In this document: positions 6,987 to 13,444 of the stretch, in pieces
How positions within the stretch are numbered: the stretch's first letter is position 1
How the letters are laid out: the number at the start of each line of letters is the position of its first letter
Source of the DNA: Candidatus Stoquefichus sp. SB1
GTDB lineage: Bacteria; Bacillota_I; Bacilli_A; Erysipelotrichales; Coprobacillaceae
Length of the DNA: 64,000 nucleotides
NCBI RefSeq assembly: GCF_001244545.1
Contig: NZ_LN852696.1
Coordinates: 1 to 64,000 of the forward strand
Reading direction: 5' to 3'
The notes under the pieces: model-generated
What the model was told of the DNA's origin: nothing
The model's database searches: none
The model's input: only the letters and a program-made list of their open reading frames with translations
Translations under genes and position numbers: made by a program

Positions 6987-7166
6987 ATGTGTCAAAGATC
7001 AAAGAAAACAAATTATTATCTTGTTGTGGGGTTATTGATCAGTTCTACGACATATCTCTTATATGATGCTGATATGATTCCACATTGGTTAAGATTAACA
7101 TTATTAATAATTGCTATTGTAGTGATGTTATATGGTGTAATAAAGAAAAATACATGTAAAAATTAG
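6987..7166 (+). CDS. Small membrane protein, 59 aa
   Basis: Start MCQRSKKTNYY is chosen because the Shine-Dalgarno AAGGAG (6973-6978) overlaps the alternative in-frame GTG at 6978, leaving a correctly spaced ATG at 6987. The protein has two hydrophobic segments (about residues 12-29 and 37-53) and basic ends. It is the last gene of the XRE cassette, before a terminator. No family was recognised. Confidence 0.7.
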   Translation: MCQRSKKTNYYLVVGLLISSTTYLLYDADMIPHWLRLTLLIIAIVVMLYGVIKKNTCKN

Positions 7167-7199
7167 GGATAGTCGTAAAAAACTATTCCTTTTGTTTTA
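7166..7199 (+). terminator. Terminator of the XRE cassette
   Basis: GGGATAGT pairs with ACTATTCC (8 bp, one G-U) and is followed by TTTTGTTTT. Confidence 0.8.
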
Positions 7200-7282: not shown

Positions 7283-8464
7283 ATGAATTTTGTATATGTA
7301 TCACCTTCCTTTCCAAAAAATTTTTATCAATTTTGTGATTGTTTAAAAGAGAAAGGTGTCACAGTTTTAGCGATAGGAGATACACCTTATCATCAATTAT
7401 CTGAAGAATTGAAGAATGCTGTTGATGATTATTATCAAGTATTTTCAATGGAAAATTATGATGAGATGGTGAAAGCAATGGGATATTTTATATTTCATTA
7501 TGGTCATATTGATTGGTTAGAATCTAACAATGAATATTGGTTAGAACAAGATGCGAGATTAAGAACTGATTTCAATATAACAACAGGAATACATACTGAT
7601 CATATTGAAGATATTAAATGTAAATCTAAAATGAAAAAGTTTTATGAAGAGGCTGGAGTTAAAACAGCAAGATATCATTTAACAACAACATTAGAAGAAG
7701 GTTTAAAATTTATTAAAGAGGTTGGTTATCCAGTTGTTGTAAAACCAGATAATGGTGTAGGAGCAGCAAAGACATATAAGATTTCTTCTGATGAAGAATT
7801 AAAGGCTTTTTATTTGGAAGATCATCCAACTCAATATATTATGGAGGAATTTGTTAATGGGTTGATTATATCATATGATGGTATAGCCAATCTTGAAAAA
7901 GATGTTATTTTTGAAACATCACATGTTTTTCCAAATCCAATAATGGATGTTGTGAATGATGCAAGTAGTATGTATTATTATTCTTTAAGAGAAATACCTT
8001 ATGATTTAAAATTAGCTGGAAAAGCATGTGTTAAGACTTTTTATACAGCTGGAAGATGTTTCCATATGGAATTTTTTAGATTGTTAGAAGATAAAGAAGG
8101 ATTAGGTAAAAAAGGTGATATTATTGGTTTAGAAGTGAATTTAAGAACACCAGGAGGATATACACCTGATATGATGAATTTTGCAAATGATATTAATGTA
8201 TATGATATTTATGCAGATATGGTTGTAAAGGGAGAAAGTGAATATAATCATCATAGACCTTATCATTGTGTTTATTGTGGAAGAAGAGATTATTTGCATT
8301 ATCAACATACTCACAATGAAGTTATGGAAAAATATCAATTTGATTTATTAATGGCTGAAAGAATGCCAGATATTTTAAGTGGTGCAATGGGGAATTTTAC
8401 ATATACAGCACGTTTTGAAACAATGGATGAAGTGAATGCTTTTGTGGATTTTGTGCTAGGATAG
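7283..8464 (+). CDS. ATP-grasp ligase, first paralogue
   Basis: 393-residue ATP-grasp protein. The N-terminal Rossmann-like preATP domain begins MNFVYVSPSFPKNFYQF. The ATP-grasp nucleotide loop is VVVKPDNGVGA (about residue 152), and the Mg-ATP site is GLEVNLRTPGG (about 285). The family joins a carboxylate, via an acyl phosphate, to an amine or thiol. It is closely similar to the ligase at 9233 (long shared runs such as GDI-GLEVN and KSKMK), so the pair arose by duplication. Start ATG follows AAAGGGGA at good spacing. A -10-like TATAAT lies at 7251-7256. The specific substrate is unknown. It is annotated elsewhere only generically (carbamoyl-phosphate-synthase-like), which I would not trust as a function. 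Confidence 0.88.
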   Translation: MNFVYVSPSFPKNFYQFCDCLKEKGVTVLAIGDTPYHQLSEELKNAVDDYYQVFSMENYDEMVKAMGYFIFHYGHIDWLESNNEYWLEQDARLRTDFNITTGIHTDHIEDIKCKSKMKKFYEEAGVKTARYHLTTTLEEGLKFIKEVGYPVVVKPDNGVGAAKTYKISSDEELKAFYLEDHPTQYIMEEFVNGLIISYDGIANLEKDVIFETSHVFPNPIMDVVNDASSMYYYSLREIPYDLKLAGKACVKTFYTAGRCFHMEFFRLLEDKEGLGKKGDIIGLEVNLRTPGGYTPDMMNFANDINVYDIYADMVVKGESEYNHHRPYHCVYCGRRDYLHYQHTHNEVMEKYQFDLLMAERMPDILSGAMGNFTYTARFETMDEVNAFVDFVLG

Positions 8465-8475
8465 GAGGAATCAAT

Positions 8476-9231
8476 ATGAAAAAAGAATGGTTTAAGGAAT
8501 ATAGTGAGTGTTTAAATAGGGATATGGAGTTTATGGTATATGGACATGCTGGTCAACCTATTTTAGTCTTTCCAGCGCAGGATGGACGTTATTTTGATTT
8601 TGAAAATTTTGGGATGGTACAGACTGTTGAACATTTAATTGATGAAGGACGAATTCAATTGTTTTGTTGTGATAGTATTGATCCAGAATCTTGGTCTGGT
8701 AAAGGACTTGATCCTAGACATCGTACATATATGATGGAACAATGGTATTATTATATTGTTAATGAATTGGTACCAAGAATTTTTGAGATTAATTCTTATG
8801 GTAATGGTGGCGGATATGCTGATGGTATTTTTACAACAGGATGTTCTATGGGAGCGACGCATGCTGCTAATTTTATGTTTAGAAGACCAGATATTTTTAA
8901 GGGAACAATTGCATTAAGTGGATATTATGATAGTGATTTATTCTTTGATGATTATCATGATGATATTATTTATCGTAATTCACCTATTCAATATCTTCAT
9001 GGGATGAGTTATGATCATCCTTATGTTGATATGTATCGTCATTGTAAGATTGTTTTATGTTGTGGTCAAGGAGCCTGGGAAGATGATATGATTAGAAGTA
9101 CTGCACGCATGAAAGAACTTTTAGAATATAAAGATATTCCTGCATGGATTGATTTTTGGGGAAATGATGTCAATCATGATTGGGATTGGTGGCAAGTACA
9201 ATTTCCATATTTTGTAGAAAGGGTGATATAA
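8476..9231 (+). CDS. Esterase D-type alpha/beta hydrolase
   Basis: 251 residues. The nucleophile elbow GCSMGA (Ser near residue 122) fits the putative esterase (PF00756-like) family. A C-terminal WGNDVNHDWDWW supplies a plausible catalytic His, and the Asp is likely in the preceding strand. No signal peptide is visible, so it acts in the cytoplasm. It lies 11 nt after the first ATP-grasp gene and one base before the second, all with ribosome sites, so the three are one operon. It could hydrolyse, cyclise or transfer the ligase product (inference). Substrate unknown. Confidence 0.88.
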   Translation: MKKEWFKEYSECLNRDMEFMVYGHAGQPILVFPAQDGRYFDFENFGMVQTVEHLIDEGRIQLFCCDSIDPESWSGKGLDPRHRTYMMEQWYYYIVNELVPRIFEINSYGNGGGYADGIFTTGCSMGATHAANFMFRRPDIFKGTIALSGYYDSDLFFDDYHDDIIYRNSPIQYLHGMSYDHPYVDMYRHCKIVLCCGQGAWEDDMIRSTARMKELLEYKDIPAWIDFWGNDVNHDWDWWQVQFPYFVERVI

Positions 9232-9232
9232 T

Positions 9233-10441
9233 ATGAATTTAATTTTTATTTCACCACACTTTCCTCTCTATTTTTATAATTTTTGTGATCGATTAAAAGC
9301 TCGTGGTGTGAATGTTTTAGGAATTGGTGATGCAAGTTATGATAATTTGCCATATCATACTAAAATTGCTTTAACAGAGTATTACAAGGTTGATGATTTA
9401 GAAGATTATGAGGAAGTTTATCGTGCATGTGCATATTATACTTGGCATTATGGTAAGATTGATTGGATTGAATCACAAAATGAATATTGGTTAGAATTGG
9501 AAGCAACATTACGTAATGAATTCAATGTAACAACTGGAACAAAGATTCAACATATGGCACCAATGAAATATAAATCAAAAATGAAAGATGTTTATAAAGC
9601 AGCTGGAATACCTACTGCACGTTTTAGAATGGTGGATGATTATCAGGCAACAAAAGCTTTTGCGAATAAGGTAGGTTATCCTGTTATTGTTAAACCGGAT
9701 AATGGTGTGGGAGCAAGTTCTACTTATAAATTAAAAAATGATGATGAGTTAGATTATTTCTTTGCAACAAAAGATCCAGTGATTCAATTTATTATTGAAG
9801 AGATGGTACCTGGACATGTGGAGACTTTTGATGGTATTACAGATAAAGATAAAAATATCTTAATAGCGACAAGCCATGTTATGTTAAATTCAATCATGGA
9901 TAATGTCAATGAAGCCTCTGATACAGCCTTTTATTCACAGCCAGTTGAAGGTTTGGATATTGCAGAGGTTGGAAAAAGAGCAGTCGAAGCTTTTGATACA
10001 AGAAGTCGTTTTTTCCACTTTGAATTCTTTCGTTTAGATGAGGATAGAGAAGGATTAGGTAAAAAGGGTGATATTGTTGGCTTAGAAGTGAATATGCGTG
10101 CTCCTGGCGCTTATATGCCTGATATGATGAATTTTGCTTATAATGTAGATGTTTATACAATATGGGCAGATATGATTAAGTATAATCAATGTTATTATGA
10201 TATTAAAAGAGAATATTGGGTTGCTTATACAGGTCGTCGTGATGGTATTTGGTATATGTATAATTATGATCAGATTAGAGCAGTTTATGGTGAAAACATT
10301 GCTTTAGAAACAGATGTACCAGAAGCTTTATCAGCAGCTATGGGAAATCATGTTTTCATTGTCAAATCACGTACTCAAGAAGAACTGTTTGCAATGATTC
10401 GCTATATACTCAAACGAGAAGATGGAACTGATTGGATGTAA
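9233..10441 (+). CDS. ATP-grasp ligase, second paralogue
   Basis: 402 residues, with the same architecture as the ligase at 7283. The N-terminal domain begins MNLIFISPHFPLYFYNF, the nucleotide loop is VIVKPDNGVGA (about 154), and the metal site is GLEVNMRAPGA (about 286). The C-terminal portion (YTGRRDGIWYMYNYDQIRAVYG) diverges most from the first paralogue (YCGRRDYLHYQHTHNEVMEKY), suggesting different acceptor substrates. Its ATG overlaps the ribosome-binding region at the end of the hydrolase gene. It is the last gene of the triad, and a hairpin lies 56 nt downstream. Confidence 0.88.
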   Translation: MNLIFISPHFPLYFYNFCDRLKARGVNVLGIGDASYDNLPYHTKIALTEYYKVDDLEDYEEVYRACAYYTWHYGKIDWIESQNEYWLELEATLRNEFNVTTGTKIQHMAPMKYKSKMKDVYKAAGIPTARFRMVDDYQATKAFANKVGYPVIVKPDNGVGASSTYKLKNDDELDYFFATKDPVIQFIIEEMVPGHVETFDGITDKDKNILIATSHVMLNSIMDNVNEASDTAFYSQPVEGLDIAEVGKRAVEAFDTRSRFFHFEFFRLDEDREGLGKKGDIVGLEVNMRAPGAYMPDMMNFAYNVDVYTIWADMIKYNQCYYDIKREYWVAYTGRRDGIWYMYNYDQIRAVYGENIALETDVPEALSAAMGNHVFIVKSRTQEELFAMIRYILKREDGTDWM

Positions 10442-10624: not shown

Positions 10625-13444
10625 ATGGTAAATAAAAAGAATGAAAGACTTTCAACAAGAGGAGTTTATGTAATTAATGAACAATATCAAATTGTTTATT
10701 TTGATAATTCTTTAAAAGAGTTATATCCAACATTACAAAATAATTCTATCTGTTATCGATTATTAAGAAATCGTAGTGAGCCATGTTCAGATTGTCCACT
10801 TGTATTCTTAAATAATAGTCAAACAGTTATTCATACATCCATAAAATATAATGAATTGTATTGTGGATGGGATAATTGTACGACTTTAAGATTGAATTGG
10901 CCTCATGAAGGGGAATGTATTTTAGTAACCATGTATCCAATTAATGATGAAGAACATAAAGTCTTTTTAAATATAAATCAAGATCAGCACTATGATGAAC
11001 TTGTTGAATTAAATGTTAATACACAGACATATCGTTATCTTTGTAATGATGGTTCAGAGGTAGATATTGCTAATGAAGGAGAAATTAAGGATTTAGTTGA
11101 ACAATTTAGCACCAAATATATTTATCCAGAAGATATTGAAAGATTTAAAGCTTTCTTTGATTTAATTACATTAGAATATCGAACTGAGAATATGGGGCAT
11201 ATAGTAGATGATTTCCGAGTTTTAAGATCAGATAATAATTATCATTATTTTTCTTTATATTTGCAGCCAGTTGAAAAGAATATCAATGAAAAATGCTATC
11301 TTTGTTATGCTGTGAATGTCGATGAAAGATATAACGGACTTCAAAAACAACTTGATAATCGTTACCAGCAACAAATAGATCCATTAACATTTCTTTATAA
11401 TCTGAACACTTTTCAAGAACTTGTTAAAGATAGATTAGCTAAAGATTTAGATACAGAATATGCAATTGTTTCTATTGATATAGAACATTTCAAACTCTTT
11501 AATGAATGGTATGGAACTGATCAAGGAGATAATTTATTAAAATATGTTGCGAGTTGTATCCGTCGTTTTGTAGAGTCAAATAATGGTTATGCTGCACGTA
11601 ATGGGAATGATGATTTTCTTTGTCTTATTCCTTATGAATGTTGTCATGTAGAAATGTTAGAAAATGAAATTGTGAATTGGATTCAAAATTACAATATTGA
11701 ATATAGATTTTTACCAGCTGCTGGGATTTATCCGATTCAAGATAGAAAAACACCTCTGACTTTGATGTGTGATCGTGCTATTATGGCTGAAAATTCAATT
11801 AAAGGAAATTATATTAATAGAGTTGCTTTATATCAAGAAAAAATGAAATTGAAATTAGAGAATGAACAGGAAATTTTGTTTAGTGTGAAAAATGGACTTG
11901 AGAATAAAGAATTTGAAATTTATTTTCAACCACAATGTAGTGCTAGAACTCAAAGAATCATAGGTGCAGAAGTCTTGGTGCGTTGGAATCATCCAACAAA
12001 AGGCTTATTAATGCCTAATACATTTATTCCGATATTAGAAAATAGTGGCTTTATTTATAAATTAGATTATTATGTATGGGAAAAGACTTGCCAGTATCTT
12101 CATGATAGAATTGTGAAACAGCAAGTGATTGTTCCATTATCAGTTAATGTTTCAAGATTAGATATTTACCAGTATAATCTGGTACAAGTCTTTGAAAATT
12201 TATGTACAAATTATCAAATACCTAAACGCTACTTAGAAATTGAAATTACTGAGAGTGCATATAGTGATAATTTTGTACAATTAATTGAAACAATATCTCA
12301 ATTAAGAAGTCATGGTTTTAGAGTTTTAATGGATGATTTTGGAAGTGGTTATTCTGCACTAAATATGTTAAAGGATATTGAAGTTGATGTCTTAAAATTA
12401 GATATGAAGTTTTTAGATATGGATGAAAATAGTCTTAATAAAGGATTAAGTGTTTTAGAATCATCTATTCTCATGGCTAAATGGTTAAAAATGGGGCTTA
12501 TTGCTGAAGGTGTTGAAACTGAAGAACAAGTTAAACATTTGTTGAATATGAATTGTGAATATATGCAGGGATTCCATTTTTACAAGCCGATGCCAGCGAG
12601 TGATTTTGATGAACTTCTTTCTCACTTACAAAATGTTGATACAAGAGATATTATGGTAGAAAGTTTACCAACATTGCAAATAGATGATTTATTTAAAAAA
12701 GATATTACAAGTGAATCTATGCTAAACAATATCATTGGTGGCGTTGCGATTTATTCTCTTGATGATCATGATAATGTGACATTGAAAACAGTTAATGATG
12801 GCTATTATCGTATTACTGGATGTAATCCAGTGGATCTTAATGAAAAAGCAGATTCGATTCTTTTGCAGGTACATGAAGAAGATAGAGATTATGCGATTGA
12901 TATATTTAAACGTGCTGAAAAAAATGGGCATTTGGGTGCAAGTGGAACATTTAGAAGATATCGTTTAAATGGTGAAATTATGTGGATGAATCTAAAAGCA
13001 TTTTTCTTACATAGAGAATCTCATCAACGTATTTATTATGGCGTAATTAATGATTATACTGAGCAGATGAATAGACAAAAAGAACTTCATATGATCTTAG
13101 ATTCAATACCAGGAAATATCATTGAATATCGTGTGAAAGATGATCATCTGGCTTGTCATATTCTTAATTATGGACTTAAAGATTATTTAGGATATAGTCA
13201 ACAGGATATGAATCAAATGGTTGGCAGTCAACTTGGGCTAGAGAGTATTTGTCCAGAAGATAGAGAAGCAGTAGAAAAAATCTTTGTTGATTTCAAGACT
13301 TGGGGAAAAGGGATGGATTTCTATTATTCATGCTTTAATCTTCAGGGTGAAAAGGTGTATTTACATCAACATATTGTCTATTATGACCAAGAAGAAGATA
13401 CTAAGATATATTGTGGTTTATGTATGGTTATGAACAATGGATAA
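10625..13444 (+). CDS. PAS-GGDEF-EAL-PAS-PAS protein, c-di-GMP phosphodiesterase
   Basis: 939 residues without membrane segments. The order is an N-terminal PAS-like domain with a Cys cluster (CYRLLRNRSEPCSDCP, about 43-59), GGDEF (about 250-405), EAL (about 430-665) and two C-terminal PAS-like domains (about 695-810 and 815-939). The GGDEF signature is degenerate (RNGNDDF), so cyclase activity is probably lost. The EAL domain keeps its catalytic set: EVL, NVS, EIEITES, DDFGSGYS, KLD and EGVE. It should therefore hydrolyse c-di-GMP under control of the PAS modules. It is monocistronic, between hairpins. Confidence 0.93.
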   Translation: MVNKKNERLSTRGVYVINEQYQIVYFDNSLKELYPTLQNNSICYRLLRNRSEPCSDCPLVFLNNSQTVIHTSIKYNELYCGWDNCTTLRLNWPHEGECILVTMYPINDEEHKVFLNINQDQHYDELVELNVNTQTYRYLCNDGSEVDIANEGEIKDLVEQFSTKYIYPEDIERFKAFFDLITLEYRTENMGHIVDDFRVLRSDNNYHYFSLYLQPVEKNINEKCYLCYAVNVDERYNGLQKQLDNRYQQQIDPLTFLYNLNTFQELVKDRLAKDLDTEYAIVSIDIEHFKLFNEWYGTDQGDNLLKYVASCIRRFVESNNGYAARNGNDDFLCLIPYECCHVEMLENEIVNWIQNYNIEYRFLPAAGIYPIQDRKTPLTLMCDRAIMAENSIKGNYINRVALYQEKMKLKLENEQEILFSVKNGLENKEFEIYFQPQCSARTQRIIGAEVLVRWNHPTKGLLMPNTFIPILENSGFIYKLDYYVWEKTCQYLHDRIVKQQVIVPLSVNVSRLDIYQYNLVQVFENLCTNYQIPKRYLEIEITESAYSDNFVQLIETISQLRSHGFRVLMDDFGSGYSALNMLKDIEVDVLKLDMKFLDMDENSLNKGLSVLESSILMAKWLKMGLIAEGVETEEQVKHLLNMNCEYMQGFHFYKPMPASDFDELLSHLQNVDTRDIMVESLPTLQIDDLFKKDITSESMLNNIIGGVAIYSLDDHDNVTLKTVNDGYYRITGCNPVDLNEKADSILLQVHEEDRDYAIDIFKRAEKNGHLGASGTFRRYRLNGEIMWMNLKAFFLHRESHQRIYYGVINDYTEQMNRQKELHMILDSIPGNIIEYRVKDDHLACHILNYGLKDYLGYSQQDMNQMVGSQLGLESICPEDREAVEKIFVDFKTWGKGMDFYYSCFNLQGEKVYLHQHIVYYDQEEDTKIYCGLCMVMNNG

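Follow-up and report, generated by a model that had tools for sequence, protein, structure and literature searches.

What is made or turned over by two ATP-grasp ligases encoded on either side of an esterase gene, and do these three genes belong together at all? This question is raised by a locus within the window, which is the whole stretch of 64,000 nucleotides that was analysed here and which stems from a genome assembly of 3.59 Mb. In the following, the two ligases are termed A1 and A2 (A for this type of ligase in general) and the esterase is termed E. Their coordinates are listed in Table 1.

Table 1. Features of the ligase–esterase locus and their positions within the window.
Feature	Positions	Strand	Description
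Terminator-like hairpin 5′ of A1	7165–7190	+	consensus scan only; may delimit the transcription unit on its upstream side
A1	7283–8464	+	ORF; ATP-grasp ligase, 393 aa, L-amino-acid-ligase-like fold
E	8476–9231	+	ORF; PF00756 serine esterase, 251 aa, signal peptide not visible
A2	9233–10441	+	ORF; second ATP-grasp ligase, 402 aa, old separate clade

An earlier note on this DNA had described a three-gene layout with spacers of 11 nt (A1/E) and 1 nt (E/A2), and open reading frames on one common strand were indeed found at these positions. A ribosome-binding-like AGGAGG is located upstream of E. The predicted hairpin in front of A1 would fit a separate transcription unit and by itself proves nothing. 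The nearest named relative of A1, with 92% identity, is from Candidatus Stoquefichus massiliensis. Starting 183 nt after A2, positions 10625–13444 encode a PAS-GGDEF-EAL protein of 939 aa, relatives of which are also found 3′ of the triad in two other loci (L060, 65%; L066, 74%), making it a local neighbour of that group. Further downstream (15262–57458) the window contains several repeated sets of PTS IIA, a LicT-like antiterminator, PTS IIBC and 6-phospho-beta-glucosidase, with these labels having been assigned by eye.

Predicted activities of the ligases and the esterase

Both motifs which the earlier note had read in two paralogous ligases, KPDNGVGA and GLEVN, are present in A1 as well as in A2. 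The alignment of the two proteins yields an identity of 46% overall, and the divergence of the C-terminal parts pointed out before was confirmed, with 35% identity for residues 291–393 versus 52% for residues 1–100 and 49.5% for residues 101–290. K154, H261, E263, E284, N286 and R288 are each invariant in the ligase alignment (186/186). Roles in the binding of ATP and metal can be assigned to these residues by analogy, and on this basis A1 and A2 can be regarded as catalytically complete ATP-grasp proteins. Pfam models above their cut-offs were GARS_A and CPSase_L_D2 for A1, and CPSase_L_D2 and ATP-grasp_3 for A2. NCBIfam yielded 41 and 50 matched models for the two ligases, none of them near its cut-off among the 25 matches listed for each. 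Judged by these models, both proteins fall into the ATP-grasp superfamily without receiving a functional name. In the source genome, high-score matches of the ligase profile comprised only A1 and A2.

An AlphaFold2 model of A1 (pLDDT 91.5) matched BL00235 (3vot; Z 30.6, rmsd 3.6 over 354 residues) and RizA (4wd3; Z 29.9, rmsd 4.5 over 358 residues), followed by the next entry at Z 27.3. RizA was also first in Foldseek for A1 and in the profile search (2e-17). The predicted ligase fold thus appears to be closest to that of L-amino-acid ligases, and this over the whole chain. A fold match alone would not prove the formation of a dipeptide or amide; PurK-like enzymes come close with Z-values near 27. 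According to an excerpt of PMC6920838, L-amino-acid ligases are ATP-grasp enzymes which form only dipeptides, from free amino acids.

The esterase fold that had been suggested for E is well supported, as the protein contains the nucleophile elbow GCSMG and reaches 44.1 bits with PF00756 (cut-off 22 bits). The NCBIfam search of E gave one weak match only, which was to a model for PHA depolymerase (14.7 bits versus a cut-off of 150). In the esterase alignment S124 is conserved in 133/134, E202 in 131/134 and H234 in 132/134 sequences, and from its position following the strand 191–197 of the model E202 is presumably the catalytic acid. The AlphaFold2 model of E (pLDDT 93.2) matched a feruloyl esterase (Z 24.0), FphF (23.4), FrmB (23.1) and antigen 85 (22.0). 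Inspection of the translated N-terminus by eye revealed neither a hydrophobic stretch nor a secretion signal. E is best explained as a soluble Ser-Glu-His hydrolase of the PF00756 family with a feruloyl-esterase/FrmB/Ag85 fold. As the site residues are near-invariant across 186 ligases and 134 esterases, the ligase and esterase motifs lie far beyond chance.

The ligase–esterase pair as the conserved unit

Among 80 ATP-grasp loci, which were picked for their similarity to the ligases, E is located within 1 kb of the ATP-grasp gene in 74. The complete arrangement A-E-A was observed in 27 loci, 47 contained A-E without an adjoining second ligase, and three loci of each kind additionally contained a second esterase, E2. 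Six loci were without E; one of them (L081) stops at a contig edge, and the genomes of the other five encode E elsewhere. Forty E loci, drawn from the relatives and the phylum of the window, comprised 22 A-E-A (one with E2), nine A-E, five E-A and four E alone, and all four genomes with a lone E encode A at another position. Each of the 16 genome handles that were checked for broken linkage keeps both A and E (16/16), although two of them, G010 and G908, seem to be the same assembly. In Bacillota_A, E was found in 10 of 398 genomes and is adjoined by A in 10/10, in both orders. In Fusobacteriota, 30 of 98 genomes contain E, with A adjoining it in 12/12 loci examined, ten of which include E2. 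A-E is also present on plasmid records of Peptoclostridium, Sinorhizobium and Pararhizobium, and single genes occur on those of Massilia (A alone), Thiodictyon and Rhizobium (E alone), which holds for the plasmid records only. Hence, gene order is variable (A-E, E-A, E2-E-A) while linkage is retained, and the conserved unit is the pair of A and E, not the triad.

For the earlier note, which had treated the three genes as one unit and proposed a neighbourhood search, this means a partial confirmation: the genes do recur together elsewhere and E mostly adjoins A, but it is the pair which is kept and only about a third of the loci (27/80) contain the full triad. Its idea of two ligases catalysing two sequential steps is not supported as the definition of the pathway, since the majority of the ligase loci contain A-E with no second ligase adjoining and four genomes (G008, G011, G015 and G023) contain a single ligase beside E, which is of the A2 type by tree. 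As only A1, only A2 or both can be found beside one E, alternative ligases are favoured over two obligatory steps. A1 and A2 would then both serve one esterase and probably differ in their substrates.

E2 is a second type of PF00756 esterase that joins many such loci elsewhere. In the source genome an E2 of 251 aa (343 bits) is encoded on the contig of the triad without being linked to it, near position 1.039 Mb. In family f2, two diverged genomes contain two related ligases with E2 in place of E (L288, 6060–9830; L295, 5942–10327), and these sets are flanked by genes for a NUDIX protein and a metallophosphoesterase (labels by eye).

The absence of any substrate-determining neighbour, which had been noted for the window, extends to 67 divergent loci that were kept from 146 at less than 70% mutual ligase (or esterase) identity. 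The 133 proteins at positions −1 and +1, out of 261 near neighbours, were scanned and enrichment was judged by low counts alone. They contained 175 Pfam families, none with more than three occurrences. The module appears to be self-contained, as no recurring neighbour family is present among these 133 immediate neighbours. Several candidate links were rejected on the same counts. A link to NUDIX proteins or ADP-ribose was dismissed with NUDIX at 2/133, and one to ABC exporters with ABC_membrane at 2/133; an exporter gene pair follows A-E in one group of Fusobacteriota (L169–L174) and is missing in L185. Serine O-acetyltransferase is encoded near E in seven genomes of family f14 and overlaps A in one genome of family f8, and this link was discarded with the hexapeptide family at 3/133. 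In f14 (L254–L258, L259 and L260) E is unlinked from A and located either behind xylB-xylA (five genomes) or directly behind serine O-acetyltransferase (two genomes). The order xylB-xylA-E, seen by eye in three of the five genomes, was rejected as a xylose link for not recurring among the 133 neighbours. In three f8 loci (L236, L238 and L241) a lone A is located directly 3′ of the ATP synthase epsilon gene (ATP-synt_DE_N, 3/133).

PADLOC models, covering known anti-phage defence, assigned none of their families to the three proteins, and a pattern scan of viral_contigs yielded no relative of A or E. The unannotated record MT836893.1 (L136) of a phage collection, labelled as a phage clone and UNVERIFIED, carries E2-E-A and may be a bacterial scaffold.

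Multiple origins of the second ligase

Trees were of the quick type with SH-aLRT support. For the ligase tree, 242 rows were reduced to 186 by dropping loci L010–L033 and L186–L193 as well as identical sequences and those ligase ORFs that were shorter than 370 aa or scored below 250 bits. In this tree A2 falls into a clade of 28 rows (SH-aLRT 100) which is separate from A1, and the second ligases of Holdemania-like and of Solobacterium-like loci form two further clades with a support of 100 each. A single clade for all second ligases was rejected (AU 1.1e-44) in a test that involved 46 of the 186 rows and groups named after the first tree had been seen. As the second ligases thus belong to three separate clades whose union is rejected, the A-E-A arrangement arose at least three times. 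L175 is a fourth candidate origin, which was excluded from the count for its long branches.

Tree distances of A and E were correlated across those 100 loci that have a ligase upstream and a single E (r 0.80; 0/999 permutations as high). This agreement is compatible with inheritance and transfer of the two genes as a unit, although shared descent alone also raises r. The module is patchily held and has apparently moved between phyla.

Proposed function in the light of co-occurrence

Profile searches (E-value ≤ 1e-40) in the same 392 genomes of the phylum detected A in 100 and E in 52 genomes. Both genes were present in 50 genomes, E without A in two (G005 and G054), A without E in 50 and neither in 290 (Fisher 1.7e-32, kinship ignored); in the patchy family f2 alone the corresponding numbers are 21, 1, 1 and 17 (Fisher 3.5e-9, kinship likewise ignored). 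Most genomes with A and no E (43 of the 50) are from family f8 and measure 0.8 to 1.8 Mb. Consequently, the dependence of E on A is much stronger than that of A on E. As half of the A-positive genomes keep A without E, A has a role without E, and the rarity of the opposite case favours an action of E after A. One small genome that was counted among those with both genes (G387) keeps A and contains a degenerate E with nine stop codons (contig 25:17873–18595), which looks like an esterase loss under way.

The gene set tends to be co-inherited and probably makes or turns over a small molecule. In the proposed mechanism A would bind ATP and activate the carboxylate of its substrate, which is most likely an amino acid, by forming an acyl phosphate. 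The activated carboxylate would then be coupled to an acceptor, for which an amine is the likeliest candidate, with release of ADP. E would work after A on the same small molecule by removing or moving an acyl group which is held as an ester or thioester. That an ADP-forming ligase of the amino-acid type and an esterase act in this manner on one small molecule, as a self-contained module, is the tentatively preferred reading, to which we assign a probability of roughly 45%. The same figure applies to its broader form, a widespread system in which one small molecule is both made and turned over by a ligase along with a dedicated esterase of the cytoplasm in Bacilli, Clostridia, Fusobacteriota and Proteobacteria, with the second ligase, recruited at least three times, widening the chemistry. 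Serine esterases usually cut esters, whereas ligases with the fold of A make amides; the chemistry assumed for either A or E may therefore be wrong.

The reverse order, in which E would first release a carboxylate or acceptor from an ester, be it imported or internal, and A would then join the released piece, appears unlikely, even though a cytoplasmic esterase with a feruloyl-esterase/FrmB fold would suit it and E stands directly behind xylB-xylA in the f14 genomes, as a sugar-ester deacylase might. It does not explain why A so often occurs without E and E hardly ever without A (50/100 versus 2/52 genomes), and the sugar link is not a recurrent one among the 133 proteins scanned. Slightly more doubtful still is a detoxification or storage by conjugation, in which A would attach an amino acid as a tag to a compound that is harmful or in surplus and E would take the tag off again, so that both activities oppose each other. 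A patchy, self-contained set of two genes that was apparently transferred between phyla, with no pathway neighbours found among the 133 immediate ones, is what would be expected from such a system; in the window's own family, however, A accompanies E in 16 of the 17 E-positive genomes, which looks more like housekeeping. It is quite improbable that the genes represent a graspetide-type system for the modification of a ribosomal peptide with E as processing enzyme: graspetide links are made by ATP-grasp enzymes, as stated in an excerpt of PMC8939145, but the modelled fold of A matches amino-acid ligases over its whole chain and the two flanking gaps in the window hold only short unremarkable ORFs. 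Hardly any weight is left for A1 and A2 being in fact an already known enzyme of the cell-wall, purine or carbamoyl-phosphate kind (the earlier note had named a match to a known cell-wall or nucleotide enzyme as an objection to its own proposal), because the weak matches to such families stay far below the curated cut-offs among the matches listed and the general ATP-grasp model of Pfam gives higher scores to other ATP-grasp proteins of the same genome.

The pair is of interest for several reasons. It is carried by common gut anaerobes (Erysipelotrichaceae, Fusobacterium and some Lachnospiraceae), and two linked genes which do without any further conserved neighbour make a well-delimited target, as a new metabolite could come to light once the two or three proteins are expressed. 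Moreover, second ligases were repeatedly recruited next to this esterase, which amounts to a natural experiment on how ligase specificity changes.

Both parts belong to known superfamilies; a description of their pairing, of its distribution or of the repeated triads was not found in the open-access literature, a scope outside of which most subscription papers lie. The L-amino-acid ligases BacD/YwfE, RizA and BL00235 resemble A in their whole-chain fold (Z 25 to 31) and ATP-grasp site, yet identities in the structure alignments are only 14–18% and A1 reaches 20 bits with the curated BacD model, for which the cut-off is 850. RizA and BacD serve antibiotic pathways. Unlike these two, A has a linked esterase and stands without pathway neighbours. 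Carbamoyl-phosphate-synthase-like ATP-grasp proteins (NCBIfam PRK12767 set) exhibit a weak similarity to A in the ATP-binding region, which is far under the cut-offs (36 of 286 bits). E shares its fold as well as nucleophile, acid and histidine with CE1 feruloyl esterases, FrmB/S-formylglutathione hydrolases and antigen 85. It differs from these PF00756 esterases by an identity of only 12–17%, by having no visible secretion signal, which by eye also separates it from the secreted feruloyl and acetylxylan esterases of CE1, and by being tied to an ATP-grasp gene.
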